Of a stretch of DNA of 64,000 nt, positions 24,208 through 63,074 are shown piece after piece. The notes below the pieces were generated by a model. It was not told where the DNA came from. It ran no database searches and saw nothing but the letters and a program-made list of their open reading frames with translations. Source of the DNA: Streptomyces sp. HUAS 15-9 (GTDB lineage Bacteria > Actinomycetota > Actinomycetes > Streptomycetales > Streptomycetaceae). Every line of letters begins with the position of its first letter. Positions within the stretch are counted from its first letter, which is position 1. Location: contig NZ_CP106798.1 of NCBI RefSeq assembly GCF_025642155.1, positions 3,968,001 through 4,032,000 on the forward strand, given 5' to 3'. A program made the translations under genes and the position numbers.

Positions 24208-25896
<1,689 letters not shown>

Positions 25897-26219: not shown

Positions 26220-26426
26220 TCAGCTGGTCGCCAGCCGGACCATGTCCGCCTGCGGGCCCTTCTGGCCCTGCGAGATCTCGAAGTCGACCCGCTGTCCCTC
26301 TTCCAGGGTGCGGTAGCCGTCCATCTGGATCGCGCTGTAGTGGACGAAAACATCCGCACCACCGTCGACCGCGATGAAGCCGTACCCCTTCTCCGCGTTG
26401 AACCACTTGACGGTGCCCTGAGCCAT
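26220..26426 (-). CDS. Cold-shock protein, short form
   Basis: A 68-aa cold-shock domain protein, starting [22 protein letters not shown], with RNP1 KGYGFIA and RNP2 [15 protein letters not shown] lies upstream of the ATG. RNA chaperone by family. It lies between the MoaD/thrC-type operon and groEL2. The long intergenic stretch upstream may hold a regulated 5' leader, which is usual for cold-shock genes. Confidence 0.93.
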
Positions 26427-26857: not shown

Positions 26858-27133
26858 TCAGCCGCCGGCGACGGCCGGAATGATGGAGACACCCGAGCCG
26901 TCGGGGGTCGCCGTGTCCAGGCCCTGCTCGAAGCGGACGTCGTCGTCGTTGACGTACACATTGACGAAGCGGCGCAGCTTGCCCTGGTCGTCCAGGACGC
27001 GGGCGGCGATCCCGGTGTGGTTCTTCTCCAGGCTCTCGATGACCTCGGCGAGGGTCGCACCCTCGGCCTGGACCTCGGCCTGGCCGCCCGTGTAGGTGCG
27101 CAGGATGGTGGGGATGCGAACGGTCACGCTCAT
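26858..27133 (-). CDS. MoaD/ThiS-family sulfur-carrier protein
   Basis: A 91-aa beta-grasp protein (MSVTVRIPTILRTYTGG at the start, LRRFVNVYVNDDDVRFEQGLDT in the middle, SGVSIIPAVAGG at the end). It ends exactly in Gly-Gly, the site of adenylation and thiocarboxylation in MoaD, ThiS and CysO, so no C-terminal processing would be needed. It lies 175 bases after the threonine-synthase-like gene, under the same SAM-riboswitch-controlled unit. CysO carriers give sulfur for cysteine and HcyS-type carriers give sulfur for homocysteine; which one applies here is open. Confidence 0.92.
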   Translation of the reverse strand: MSVTVRIPTILRTYTGGQAEVQAEGATLAEVIESLEKNHTGIAARVLDDQGKLRRFVNVYVNDDDVRFEQGLDTATPDGSGVSIIPAVAGG

Positions 27134-27308
27134 ACGATTCGACCTCCGGTGACGATATGACTACGTTGCGTGTCGACCGCCGGGCCGGCGGTTTCGGCCT
27201 GTGGAGCTGACGTAAGACCTCGGCTCGGGTTCGTCCCGGGGGCAGTCGGCCGTGAAGCAGGAACCCCAGCGGGCGACCGCTGGACTCCTCGGGACTCCGG
27301 GGAGGAGG

Positions 27309-28592
27309 TCAAGCGAGGCCAGCCTCTCGGAACGACTCAAGGTTGGGACGAATGGTCGCGGTGAGCCCCGTACCGGCCACCGCGTCCAACGTCTTGAGGC
27401 CGTCACCCGTGTTGAGGACGACCGTGGTCTTGGACGGGTCGAGGACGCCGTCCTTGATGAGCTTCTGTGTCACGCCCACCGTCACACCGCCCGCCGTCTC
27501 GGCGAAGATGCCCTCGGTCCGCGCCAGCAGCTTGATGGCGTCCACGACCTGCTCGTCCGTCACATCCTCCACCGCGCCGCCGGTGCGGCGCGCGATGTCG
27601 AGGACGTACGGCCCGTCGGCCGGGTTGCCGATGGCCAGGGACTTGGCGATGGTGTTCGGCTTCTGCGGGCGGACCACGTCGTGCCCGCCCTTGAAGGCCA
27701 CGGACACCGGGGAGCAGCCCTCGGCCTGGGCGCCGAAGATCTTGTAGGGCCGGTCCTCGACCAGCCCGAGCTTGATCAGCTCCTGCAGACCCTTGTCGAC
27801 CTTGGTGAGCTGGGAGCCGGAGGCGATGGGGACCACGATCTGGTCGGGCAGCCGCCAGCCGAGTTGCTCGCAGATCTCGTACGCCAGGGTCTTGGAGCCC
27901 TCCGCGTAGTACGGCCGCAGGTTGACGTTGACGAAGCCCCAGCCCTCGCCGGCCGGGTCGCCGATCAGCTCGGAGCAGAAGCGGTTCACGTCGTCGTAGT
28001 TGCCCTCGATGCCGACAAGGTTGCCACCGTAGATCGCGGCCATGACGACCTTGCCCTGCTCCAGGTCGTGCGGGATGAACACGCAGGAGCGGAGGCCGGC
28101 GCGGGCGGCCGCGGCGCCGACGGCACCGGCGAGGTTGCCCGTGGAGGAGCAGGACAGGGTGGTGAAGCCGAAGGCGCGGGCGGCCTCCAGGGCCTGGGCG
28201 ACAACGCGGTCCTTGAAGGAGTGCGTCGGGTTGCCGGAGTCGTCCTTCACATACAGGCCGCCGGTCACACCGAGCTCGCGCGCCAGGTTGTCGGCCTTGA
28301 CGAGCTTGGTCCAGCCGGGGTTCAGGTTCGGCTTGTCGGCCACGTCCGCGGGGACGGGCAGCAGCGGCGCGTAGCGCCAGATGTTCGCGGGGCCCGCCTC
28401 GATGCGCCTGCGGAGTTCCTCGGTTTCGTACGCCGAGAAGTCGTACGCGATCTCGAGCGGGCCGAAACACTCCTCGCAGGCGAACACCGGTCCGAGCGGT
28501 ACCCGGTGACCGCACTCGCGACAGCTCAGAGCGGCGGCCGGGCCGAGGTCTACGGTGGGATTGCTGGTGCTTGCAACTGTCTGCACAGCCAT
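27309..28592 (-). CDS. thrC: Threonine synthase family PLP enzyme, possibly a homocysteine synthase
   Basis: A 427-aa fold-type II PLP enzyme. Four cysteines near the N-terminus (residues 24, 27, 39 and 42, as CREC and CEEC) form a zinc ribbon. The PLP Lys is in NPTHSFKDR (K127); SCSSTGNLAGAVG is the phosphate-binding loop, and VVLNTGDGLK is near the end. Threonine synthase acts on O-phosphohomoserine. Two contextual facts argue for a sulfur role: a SAM-I riboswitch directly upstream and a Gly-Gly-ending sulfur carrier downstream. Streptomyces have another thrC with hom and thrB elsewhere. The start MAVQTVAST at 28592 is chosen because the ATG at 28625 is inside the riboswitch P1 helix region. 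Confidence 0.92.
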   Translation of the reverse strand: MAVQTVASTSNPTVDLGPAAALSCRECGHRVPLGPVFACEECFGPLEIAYDFSAYETEELRRRIEAGPANIWRYAPLLPVPADVADKPNLNPGWTKLVKADNLARELGVTGGLYVKDDSGNPTHSFKDRVVAQALEAARAFGFTTLSCSSTGNLAGAVGAAAARAGLRSCVFIPHDLEQGKVVMAAIYGGNLVGIEGNYDDVNRFCSELIGDPAGEGWGFVNVNLRPYYAEGSKTLAYEICEQLGWRLPDQIVVPIASGSQLTKVDKGLQELIKLGLVEDRPYKIFGAQAEGCSPVSVAFKGGHDVVRPQKPNTIAKSLAIGNPADGPYVLDIARRTGGAVEDVTDEQVVDAIKLLARTEGIFAETAGGVTVGVTQKLIKDGVLDPSKTTVVLNTGDGLKTLDAVAGTGLTATIRPNLESFREAGLA

Positions 28593-28611
28593 GGAGGCGA
28601 GGCCCTTTCTC

Positions 28612-28759
28612 CTCATCTTCCTCACGACGCATCTCGCCGTGAGACGGATTTGGCACCTTCCCTAGCCGGGAGCCTCGCGAGCGATCAGTGATCTACGAGA
28701 GCCGACTGGAGGGTTGCCGGGGCTTCATCGGGCCGTGTCCCTCTGCCCCTCTGGATGAG
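28612..28759 (-). ncRNA. SAM-I (S-box) riboswitch in the thrC-type leader
   Basis: On the minus strand the leader shows every core element of SAM-I: P1 closes CUCAUC (28754-28759) with GAUGAG (28612-28617); the P2 region AGAGGGGCAGAGGGA; GGCCCGAUGAAGCCCCGGC followed by AACC; the J3/4 and P4 signature AAGGUGCCAAAUCC; then a GUCUC/GAGAU helix. The 3' arm of P1 includes GAGGAG, the only strong ribosome-site-like stretch before the start, about 15-20 bases away. This suggests control of translation. No terminator hairpin follows. Confidence 0.93.
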
Positions 28760-28891
28760 CTGTATGTGGTTGTAAACGCCCACGACCCTCGACATGCGAT
28801 GGTCATCGGCGTTGTTCAAGACTGTAACCGAAGGCCAGGACAGTTGAGATAGTCGTCCGAACCGCGAGACAACAGTGAGGAGCCGCTGACT

Positions 28892-29836
28892 GTGCTGGAA
28901 GAAGTCGAGCGCTGGCTGGCCACCCGCTCCTGGTCCATGACCGATCGCCCCCTCCACAAGATCCTCGCCGCCAAGCAGCGGACGGGTCAGTCGGTGTCCG
29001 TGGTGCTGCCCGCGCTCAACGAGGAGGAGACGGTCGGTGACATCGTCGCCGTGATCCGTCACGACCTCATGCAGCAGGTCCCGCTCGTCGACGAGATCGT
29101 GGTCGTCGACTCGGGATCCACCGACCGTACCTCCGCGGTGGCCGCCGCCGCGGGCGCCAGGGTCGTCCACCGCGACGACATCCTGCCGCGTATTCCGGCC
29201 GTTCCCGGCAAGGGGGAGGTGCTGTGGCGTTCCCTGCTGGTCACGGGCGGGGACATCGTCTGCTTCATCGACGCCGACCTGAGGGAGTTCTCCTCCGACT
29301 TCGTCACCGGGATCGTCGGCCCGCTGCTGACCGACCCGGACGTCGACCTGGTCAAGGCCATGTACGACCGCCCGCTGGGCGGGGCGACGGGCCAGGGCGG
29401 CCGGGTCACCGAGCTGATGGCGCGCCCGCTGCTGAACATGCACTGGCCGCAGCTGGCCGGCTTCGTGCAGCCGCTCGGCGGCGAGTACGCGGCCCGCCGC
29501 TCCCTGCTGGAACAGCTCCCGTTCCCCGTCGGCTACGGCGTGGAGCTGGGCATGCTGGTCGACGCCCTGCACCTGGTGGGCCTGGACGCGCTCGCGCAGG
29601 TCGACGTGGGTGTGCGCAAGCACCGGCACCAGGACGGGCAGGCGCTGGGCCGGATGGCGGCGGCGATCTACCGGACGGCGCAGCTGCGGCTGGCCCGGGG
29701 CCACCTCATCCGTCCTTCCCTCACCCAGTTCGAGCGGGGCGAGGACGGCTTCGAGCCGCGCACCTACTCGGTGGACACGGAGGAGCGGCCACCGATGGCG
29801 GAGATCGCGGAGTATGCCTCGCGCAGAGTGGCCTGA
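28892..29836 (+). CDS. gpgS: Glucosyl-3-phosphoglycerate synthase (GpgS)
   Basis: A 314-aa GT81/GT-A glycosyltransferase, starting at GTG with GAGGAG upstream. VVLPALNEEETVGDIV is the N-terminal nucleotide-sugar loop, IVVVDSGSTDRT a conserved block, and FIDADL the metal-binding DxD. LGGEYAARRSLLEQLPFPVGYGVELGML is typical for GpgS. The enzyme joins glucose from an NDP-glucose to 3-phosphoglycerate, the first step toward glucosylglycerate and methylglucose polysaccharides. Divergent from the riboswitch operon. Confidence 0.93.
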   Translation: MLEEVERWLATRSWSMTDRPLHKILAAKQRTGQSVSVVLPALNEEETVGDIVAVIRHDLMQQVPLVDEIVVVDSGSTDRTSAVAAAAGARVVHRDDILPRIPAVPGKGEVLWRSLLVTGGDIVCFIDADLREFSSDFVTGIVGPLLTDPDVDLVKAMYDRPLGGATGQGGRVTELMARPLLNMHWPQLAGFVQPLGGEYAARRSLLEQLPFPVGYGVELGMLVDALHLVGLDALAQVDVGVRKHRHQDGQALGRMAAAIYRTAQLRLARGHLIRPSLTQFERGEDGFEPRTYSVDTEERPPMAEIAEYASRRVA

Positions 29837-29919
29837 TCGCTGGAGAACGGCTGTATACGGCCCCCTCGCAGGGTGGAACGTACGTTTGAGCGTTTCCGGG
29901 CCGGGCTAGGTTGAGGCGT

Positions 29920-31356
29920 ATGGCTTCCACGCACGGTGCTGCTGAAGTGCTGGTCGCGTCCAATCGCGGCCCGGTTTCGTACGAGGTGCGCGAGGGGGGT
30001 GCGCTGCATGCCAAGCGGGGCGGTGGCGGGCTGGTCTCGGGGCTGTCGGCCATCGGGCCGCACACGGACGCGGTGTGGGTGTGCGCCGCGCTGAGCGACG
30101 CCGACCGGGAGGCGGTGCGCCGCTCGCACGGCGGCCGGCGGCTGTCCGTGGACGCGACCGGCGGCCAGCAGGTGCGCATGCTGGACATCGACGCGACGGT
30201 GTTCTCCGACGCGTACAACGGCGTCGCCAACTCCGTGCTCTGGTTCGTCCACCACATGCTCTACCAGACCCCGCTGGAGCCGGTGTTCGACGCGGAGTTC
30301 CGGCGCCAGTGGGCGTCGTACGAGGCCTACAACCGGGCGTTCGCCGAGGCGCTGGCGGAGGAGGCCGCCGAGGGCGCCGCGGTGCTGATCCAGGACTACC
30401 ACCTCGCCCTGGCCCCCCGGATGCTCCGGCAGCTCCGCCCCGATCTGCGGATCGGCCATTTCTCGCACACCCCGTGGGCCCCGCCGGACTACTTCCGGCT
30501 CCTGCCCGACGACATCGCGGCCGAGCTGCTCGGCGGCATCCTCGGCGCCGACCACGCGGCCTTCCTCACCCGGCGCTGGGCGGACGCGTTCACCGACTGC
30601 TGTCATGCGGTGCTCGGCCCCGGCATCCCGTCCGGCACGCGCATCGGTGTGCACGGGCTCGGCGCGGACGCGGACTTCCTGCGCAAGCGGGCGCACGAGG
30701 CGGACGTGGCCGAACGGATGACGGCGCTGCGGGCGGAGATCGGCGAGGGCCGCAGGACGATCGTCCGGGTGGACCGCACCGAGCTGTCGAAGAACATCGT
30801 GCGCGGGCTGCTGGCGTACCGGCAGCTGCTGGACGACCACCCCGAGTGGCGCGAGCGGGTCGTGCACGTGGCCTTCGCCTACCCCTCCCGGCAGGACCTG
30901 GCCGTGTACCGGGACTACACGGCGGAGGTGCGGCGCCTCGCGGAGGAGATCAACTCCCGGTACGGGACGCCGGGTTGGACCCCGGTCGAGATGCACGTCA
31001 AGGACGACTTCGCGCGCTCCCTGGCGGCGTACCGGCTGGCGGACGTGGCGCTGGTGAACCCCATCCGGGACGGTATGAACCTGGTCGCCAAGGAGATCCC
31101 GGTCGTCTCCGACGCGGGGTGCGTGCTGGTGCTCTCGCGGGAGGCCGGGGCGTACGAGGAGCTGGGCGAGGACGCGATCGCCGTGAACCCGTACGACATC
31201 GTGGGCACGGCCGGCGCCCTGCACCAGGCGCTGACCATGCCCCCGGAGGAACGGGCGGAGCGTACGAAGCGGCTCGCTGCCGCGGCTACCGCGTTGCCCC
31301 CTGCCCAGTGGTTCCTGGACCAGCTGCACGCGCTGGACGCCGGTCAGTCCAGCTGA
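29920..31356 (+). CDS. otsA: Trehalose-6-phosphate synthase-like GT20 glycosyltransferase (OtsA)
   Basis: A 478-aa GT20 protein starting MASTHGAAEVLVASNRGPVSYEV. Blocks seen are GGGGLVSGLSAIG, FVHHMLYQTPLEP, IQDYHLALAPRMLR, IGHFSHTPWAPPDYFRLLP and NPIRDGMNLVAKE. The HTPW segment and the SKNIVRGLLAYRQLL block differ from the HTPFP and RLDYIKG forms of E. coli OtsA, so it is a divergent branch. It makes trehalose 6-phosphate from glucose 6-phosphate and a nucleotide-glucose, if the assignment holds. It overlaps the convergent otsB by 13 bases, supporting a trehalose role. Confidence 0.85.
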   Translation: MASTHGAAEVLVASNRGPVSYEVREGGALHAKRGGGGLVSGLSAIGPHTDAVWVCAALSDADREAVRRSHGGRRLSVDATGGQQVRMLDIDATVFSDAYNGVANSVLWFVHHMLYQTPLEPVFDAEFRRQWASYEAYNRAFAEALAEEAAEGAAVLIQDYHLALAPRMLRQLRPDLRIGHFSHTPWAPPDYFRLLPDDIAAELLGGILGADHAAFLTRRWADAFTDCCHAVLGPGIPSGTRIGVHGLGADADFLRKRAHEADVAERMTALRAEIGEGRRTIVRVDRTELSKNIVRGLLAYRQLLDDHPEWRERVVHVAFAYPSRQDLAVYRDYTAEVRRLAEEINSRYGTPGWTPVEMHVKDDFARSLAAYRLADVALVNPIRDGMNLVAKEIPVVSDAGCVLVLSREAGAYEELGEDAIAVNPYDIVGTAGALHQALTMPPEERAERTKRLAAAATALPPAQWFLDQLHALDAGQSS

Positions 31357-63001: not shown

Positions 63002-63017
63002 TGTGGACTACACCAAC
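63002..63017. promoter_or_regulatory. Dre-like palindrome upstream of msiK
   Basis: TGTGGACTACACCAAC matches the DasR dre consensus at 11 of 16 positions and contains the conserved GG-CTA-ACC core, 58 bases before the msiK ATG. DasR control of msiK would fit because MsiK energises the chitobiose importer. The match is moderate, so this is inference. Confidence 0.5.
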
Positions 63018-63074
63018 CACCTTCCTACTCGGATCGTCCGGCACGTTCCTGCCGGTAGAAGGGGTCCATTCACC

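Follow-up and report, generated by a model that had tools for sequence, protein, structure and literature searches.

A SAM-I riboswitch, a threonine-synthase-like gene and a sulfur carrier gene in Streptomyces sp. HUAS 15-9 very probably form the known MetM/MetO homocysteine unit

A threonine-synthase-like gene lies between a SAM-I riboswitch and a sulfur carrier gene in Streptomyces sp. HUAS 15-9. We analysed a stretch of 64,000 nucleotides (hereafter the window), in which all three are encoded on the minus strand. From the riboswitch towards the carrier gene, the features are the following.

28610..28761, minus strand: SAM-I riboswitch aptamer (RF00162), 78 bits, E 1.3e-16, full model 1-108
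28754..28759, minus strand: 5' strand of helix P1, CUCAUC, read from the sequence
28672..28678, minus strand: GCGAGGC within the extension of P3, the complement of the leader box GCCUCGC
28612..28617, minus strand: 3' strand of helix P1, GAUGAG, immediately before the ribosome-binding region
28604..28610, minus strand: AGAAAGG, likely Shine-Dalgarno sequence, read from the sequence and retained with variations in the leaders of relatives
28597..28603, minus strand: GCCUCGC box between the Shine-Dalgarno sequence and the start, which may pair with the P1 3' strand or with P3
27309..28592, minus strand: metM-like gene for a PLP enzyme of 427 amino acids in the threonine synthase family (PF00291, TIGR00260)
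26858..27133, minus strand: metO-like gene, ThiS/MoaD-type sulfur carrier, 91 amino acids (PF02597, 65.5 bits)

Downstream of metO, the minus strand carries genes for a cold-shock-domain protein (26220-26423) and GroEL (24208-25830). Divergent from metM, on the plus strand, are a glucosyl-3-phosphoglycerate synthase gene and a trehalose-phosphate-synthase-like gene (28892-31356). The window also holds an msiK RNA motif (63012-63070, plus strand, 53.9 bits).

The SAM-I aptamer is complete. Its match spans the full model at 78 bits, over the RF00162 gathering score of 44.4 bits, and is the sole RF00162 match that we found across the 9.6-Mb genome. The original prediction had placed a SAM-I core at 28612-28759, which is right to two bases at each end (the match runs from 28761 to 28610). 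We aligned 80 leaders from 81 related loci; the remaining locus, L131, is cut by a contig end. The P1 pairs are identical in 80 of 80 leaders, which were chosen by a letter pattern that itself contains the P1 letters. Changes on both sides were seen in nine of the 34 predicted pairs, one in P2, seven in P4 and the ninth in a short hairpin of the leader that is not part of the aptamer. When the leader was folded as a single strand, the result was not unusual compared with shuffled sequences (z -1.25).

The MetM-like enzyme is distinct from streptomycete threonine synthase (ThrC). We confirmed that the gene behind the riboswitch, with ATG 28592 as its likely start, belongs to the threonine synthase family as had been claimed. 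Computed on the open reading frame read from GTG 28625, it scores 225.7 bits against PF00291 and 272 bits against TIGR00260 (thrC, NCBIfam), for which the cut-off is 167.1. The protein has an N-terminal four-cysteine segment and the SFKDR motif. We found that 16 MetM-like proteins are 52-87% identical to one another and 31 streptomycete ThrC proteins 85-99%, while identity between the groups is 33-43%. The PLP fold family and the SFKDR motif are common to both; the four-cysteine segment is present in the MetM group and absent from streptomycete ThrC. Furthermore, residues fixed in the 31 ThrC proteins are replaced in the 16 MetM-like ones: ASG takes the place of GNA in GNAGN, and ETAGG that of EPASA. 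Tyr229 of the MetM group stands for arginine 161 of ThrC, with Arg226 nearby. In ThrC, this arginine holds the substrate phosphate. An AlphaFold2 model of MetM built from 15 close sequences has a mean pLDDT of 54.3, which is too low to draw on.

The genome has another, canonical thrC. Two TIGR00260 matches exceed the cut-off, and the second (352 amino acids, 324 bits) sits immediately behind a homoserine dehydrogenase gene, with a homoserine kinase gene after it. This hom-thrC-thrB cluster, with its own thrC, lies at about 5.958-5.962 Mb of C1, and hom and thrB thus adjoin this gene and not the metM of the window. The original prediction took a sole threonine synthase as a sign against itself and proposed a search for a second thrC next to hom and thrB; the search found it, and the window gene is not the only family member. 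Since the cluster is separate, O-phosphohomoserine and threonine are obtainable without the window gene.

These results make it highly improbable that the window gene is a second true threonine synthase, SAM-controlled by chance and adjoined by an unrelated carrier. Such a reading would agree with the TIGR00260 score and with the source names of homologues, which say threonine synthase wherever a name appears among 120 listed of the 8000 scored. However, a canonical ThrC already exists in hom-thrC-thrB, residues fixed in ThrC are replaced, and the gene is partnered with both a sulfur carrier and a SAM-I riboswitch, all of which speak against it. It is less far-fetched, yet still unlikely, that MetM is bifunctional, making homocysteine and also acting as threonine synthase or threonine deaminase, which would be compatible with a homocysteine role. 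According to passages of PMC12172450, a Microcystis relative that is 51.6% identical to MetM had threonine synthase and deaminase activity, and its authors judged it not to be fully a MetM in the cell. The ThrC already present argues against a second activity here, as does the fact that SAM feedback would cut threonine as well.

No enzyme for the first step of the acyl-homoserine route was found in the genome. Searches of the genome returned no MetX (best score 26.6 bits) and no MetA. Three genes match Cys_Met_Meta_PP strongly. One is of the cystathionine gamma-synthase type (680 bits, cut-off 513) and one of the cystathionine gamma-lyase type (569, cut-off 440); the third scores below every cut-off among the 25 families shown, with methionine gamma-lyase as its best. 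A cystathionine gamma-synthase-type gene and two others of the same PLP family mean that other homocysteine routes may exist.

The carrier gene encodes a ThiS/MoaD-type protein with a plain Gly-Gly end. The predicted downstream protein ending in Gly-Gly was borne out by the PF02597 match, and its 91 residues end in IIPAVAGG (26858-26866). The best solved relatives of MetO are 4n6e chain B and 3dwg chain C, which we take to be CysO. The genome encodes four ThiS-family carriers: MetO, ThiS, a CysO-like protein ending in GGMA, and one ending in FAGG that by eye resembles MoaD. The CysO-like gene has its own locus (G000 C1:3385572-3387530, L188), where it is accompanied by a gene for a JAMM-type protease and by an ORF that looks cysM-like by eye. 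The JAMM-type gene, which precedes the carrier and is presumably Mec, scores 105.5 bits against PF14464 and 70.9 against the NCBIfam desampylase family, below the cut-off of 130. The MetO of the window is without a link to these cysM and mec genes. The GGMA carrier of this genome seems to need trimming, and MetO of the same strain does not. One protein combines ThiF and rhodanese domains and matches MoeZ (756.6 bits, cut-off 647), and another ThiF-family protein without a rhodanese domain is present.

The arrangement of riboswitch, metM and carrier is conserved among streptomycetes. We collected 81 streptomycete-type loci, namely the best 80 of 590 plus the window; nearly all are from Streptomyces and its close kin. 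The carrier lies downstream of metM in 79 of them, and in the two others a contig end follows after 76 or 458 bases. The SAM-I letter pattern precedes metM in 80 of the 81, the miss being the truncated L131. At least two TIGR00260 matches (E <= 1e-40) occur in 98 of 101 genus genomes, a count of matches to the family as a whole. Of the three genomes with a single match (G296, G311 and G344), two are under 85% complete and one is in 1140 contigs.

The unit also extends across the phylum. In an evenly sampled set of 296 genomes, we detected 109 matches in 108 genomes that share at least 49% identity with the enzyme of the window; four further listed matches at E <= 1e-60 have 34-36% identity. 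All nine genus genomes of this sample have an Rfam-scored SAM-I just upstream of the MetM match. Among the 150 SAM-I places listed, at least 58 of the 109 MetM matches have one on their own strand, no more than 600 bases upstream, and at most 51 of 109 have none nearby among the matches listed. The window's own locus aside, a carrier stands beside metM in 28 of 29 phylum-sample loci (L027-L055). The locus without one, L038, has a MetM-like protein of 59% identity and an upstream SAM-I, and no MetO was found by pattern within 1500 bases.

We rejected the idea that MetM replaces MetX everywhere. Among the 296 genomes, both occur in 22, MetM alone in 86, MetX alone in 81 and neither in 107 (Fisher p 8e-5, kinship ignored). 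MetX thus accompanies MetM in 22 of 108 genomes, three of them among the nine that belong to the genus.

The constancy of the neighbouring carrier bears on the source of sulfur. MetM might use free sulfide in the cell, with MetO serving another sulfur transfer or protein conjugation. MetO does come close to the NCBIfam SAMP1 cut-off (59.7 bits, cut-off 60), and passages of PMC12172450 describe Microcystis assays that mimicked MetM activity with sodium sulfide. We nevertheless consider this very unlikely, given that the carrier adjoins metM in 79 of 81 streptomycete-type loci and that three further ThiS-family carriers are available in the genome for other tasks.

The SAM-I switch of the window most likely acts on translation. 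The P1 3' strand GAUGAG is followed directly by GAGAAAGG, and 17 nt separate the aptamer end from the metM ATG (28592) in the window. AGAAAGG is presumably the Shine-Dalgarno sequence, which we take to be complementary to the 16S 3' end. Longer in-frame starts exist at GTG 28625 and ATG 28616, both within the aptamer. Among relatives, the number of nucleotides separating P1 from the ATG varies by single bases, so that these earlier codons do not stay in frame; metM therefore likely begins at ATG 28592. The 17 bases leave no room for a terminator. Together with the position of P1 beside the ribosome-binding region, this suggests that control is most likely translational and of the OFF type, in which SAM-bound P1 would hinder the ribosome. 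A tendency of Actinomycetota towards translational riboswitches is described in passages of a paper on contiguous riboswitches (PMC12452182).

Leaders elsewhere in the phylum differ from this pattern. Across 58 placed actinobacterial metM leaders, the spacing between aptamer and start is at most 30 in 14 and 43-236 bases in 44; these distances run to the residue where the alignment begins, and the true ones can be shorter. We examined 20 of these leaders (L166-L185) and found a T run of at least five in three (L171, L178 and L184), where it comes after an inverted repeat as judged by eye; the other 17 are without such a run. Thus, transcriptional-type (terminator) and translational modes may both be present at metM across actinobacteria.

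We retain pairing between the P3 extension and the leader box (GCGAGGC with GCCUCGC) as a lead and do not claim it, as no pair changed on both sides. In the 80 leaders, 94.9% of cells pair, and sliding the partner by 1 to 3 columns lowers this to 25-59%; shuffled columns pair as often as the real ones (95.0%). By longest stretch, 71% of the 80 leaders do better than dinucleotide shuffles (p <= 0.05), and by energy just 30% do better than shuffles. Among 11 dissimilar representatives, 0.05 is reached by four for the longest stretch and by three for energy, with p 0.99 for L108. Likewise, a hairpin between the P1 3' strand and the CCUC of this box, which are also complementary, is 99.0% paired, with shuffles equal, and is without covariation.

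The C-terminal end of MetO varies among close relatives. Requiring AGG within the last 12 residues, we read the ends of MetO in 79 streptomycete-type loci (from L056-L135 and the window): 53 end in GG, 22 in GG-Cys and four in other short extensions. On a quick tree of the 79 MetM rows, the four with other ends left out of the count, we found at least 12 changes between GG and GG-Cys, a number that is rough because 34 of the 76 inner branches are weakly supported. The added Cys codon is TGC before TGA in 22 of 22 cases. We do not claim selection for the Cys end, since Cys can arise by a three-base tandem duplication at GGCTGA. In other actinobacteria the ends vary too (GG, GGC, GGA, GGR and GGAG). 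This variation suggests that the carrier tolerates or trims an extension, and a Mec-like protease would be a candidate for the trimming. The CysO-cysteine adduct that is cut by Mec ends in Gly-Gly-Cys.

We put forward, with considerable reserve, two points that taken together are possibly new. The first is a recurrent gain and loss of Cys after the MetO Gly-Gly, which would copy the CysO-cysteine end. The second is a SAM-I leader that would control translation without a terminator: around the ribosome-binding site, a conserved CCUC box would compete with the P1 3' strand, and the P3 extension may take part as well. In the open-licence literature, which leaves Hasebe et al. 2024 outside the search, we found no published account of the leader mechanism or of the variation in MetO ends. 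If the proposal is true, GG-Cys forms of MetO would depend on Mec for maturation, and methionine synthesis would in this way be linked to the cysteine system. Both the leader without a terminator and the variation in carrier ends would be small additions to a known unit.

The best explanation, to which we give a probability of about 0.93, is that the window holds the streptomycete MetM/MetO homocysteine unit under SAM-I control. The original prediction of a homocysteine-synthesis unit is supported by what our analysis itself supplies: the anatomy of the locus, its gene order and conservation, the separate thrC in hom-thrC-thrB, and the failure to find MetX and MetA in the genome. ThrB, encoded elsewhere, would make O-phosphohomoserine. 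MoeZ, an E1-like/rhodanese protein whose role as activator we infer, would load sulfur onto MetO at its Gly-Gly end. MetM, a PLP-dependent threonine-synthase paralogue whose activity and sulfur donor we take from the literature, would then swap the phosphate of O-phosphohomoserine for the carrier sulfur to give homocysteine. When SAM is plentiful, the riboswitch would lower MetM synthesis, by the OFF control of translation that we infer from the leader. A gene auto-annotated as threonine synthase is therefore most likely a methionine-pathway enzyme, and TIGR00260 passes MetM well over its cut-off. Re-annotating metM would correct models of the methionine and threonine pathways in antibiotic producers.

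We regard the unit of the window as the already known MetM/MetO pathway, published in 2024 (Hasebe et al., Appl Environ Microbiol 90:e01247-24). We found here every sequence feature of MetM/MetO that we tested (an enzyme other than ThrC, a Gly-Gly carrier, a SAM-I riboswitch, and no MetX or MetA found). The pathway is thus already known, and the find is correct and in substance not new. We take a Gly-Gly carrier gene downstream of metM to be the defining feature of the published system. In S. albulus, metO reportedly lies downstream of metM, and MetO thiocarboxylate and O-phosphohomoserine are said to give homocysteine; the pair is also said to be widely conserved in Streptomyces. Compared by described features, rather than by sequence identity, the S. 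albulus system and the window unit have the same threonine-synthase-like enzyme, upstream SAM riboswitch, sulfur carrier partner and genus, and we found no differing feature. According to passages of PMC12172450, Hasebe et al. 2024 identified the homocysteine synthase MetM in Streptomyces, which bears out the tentative mention of such an enzyme in the original prediction. The same passages place a SAM riboswitch upstream of S. albulus metM, state that MetM prevents methionine auxotrophy in S. albulus, and describe a Microcystis sulfur carrier gene as a relative of S. albulus metO.

The CysM/CysO/Mec system of actinobacteria likewise combines a PLP enzyme with a ThiS/MoaD-type carrier, and in this genome a candidate locus for it lies elsewhere, apart from metM-metO. 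It makes cysteine, starting from O-phosphoserine. In HcyS-type systems, for which our literature search returned side mentions alone, a sulfur carrier likewise feeds homocysteine synthesis. These systems use O-acetylhomoserine and a MetY-type enzyme, whereas the enzyme of the window belongs to the threonine synthase family.
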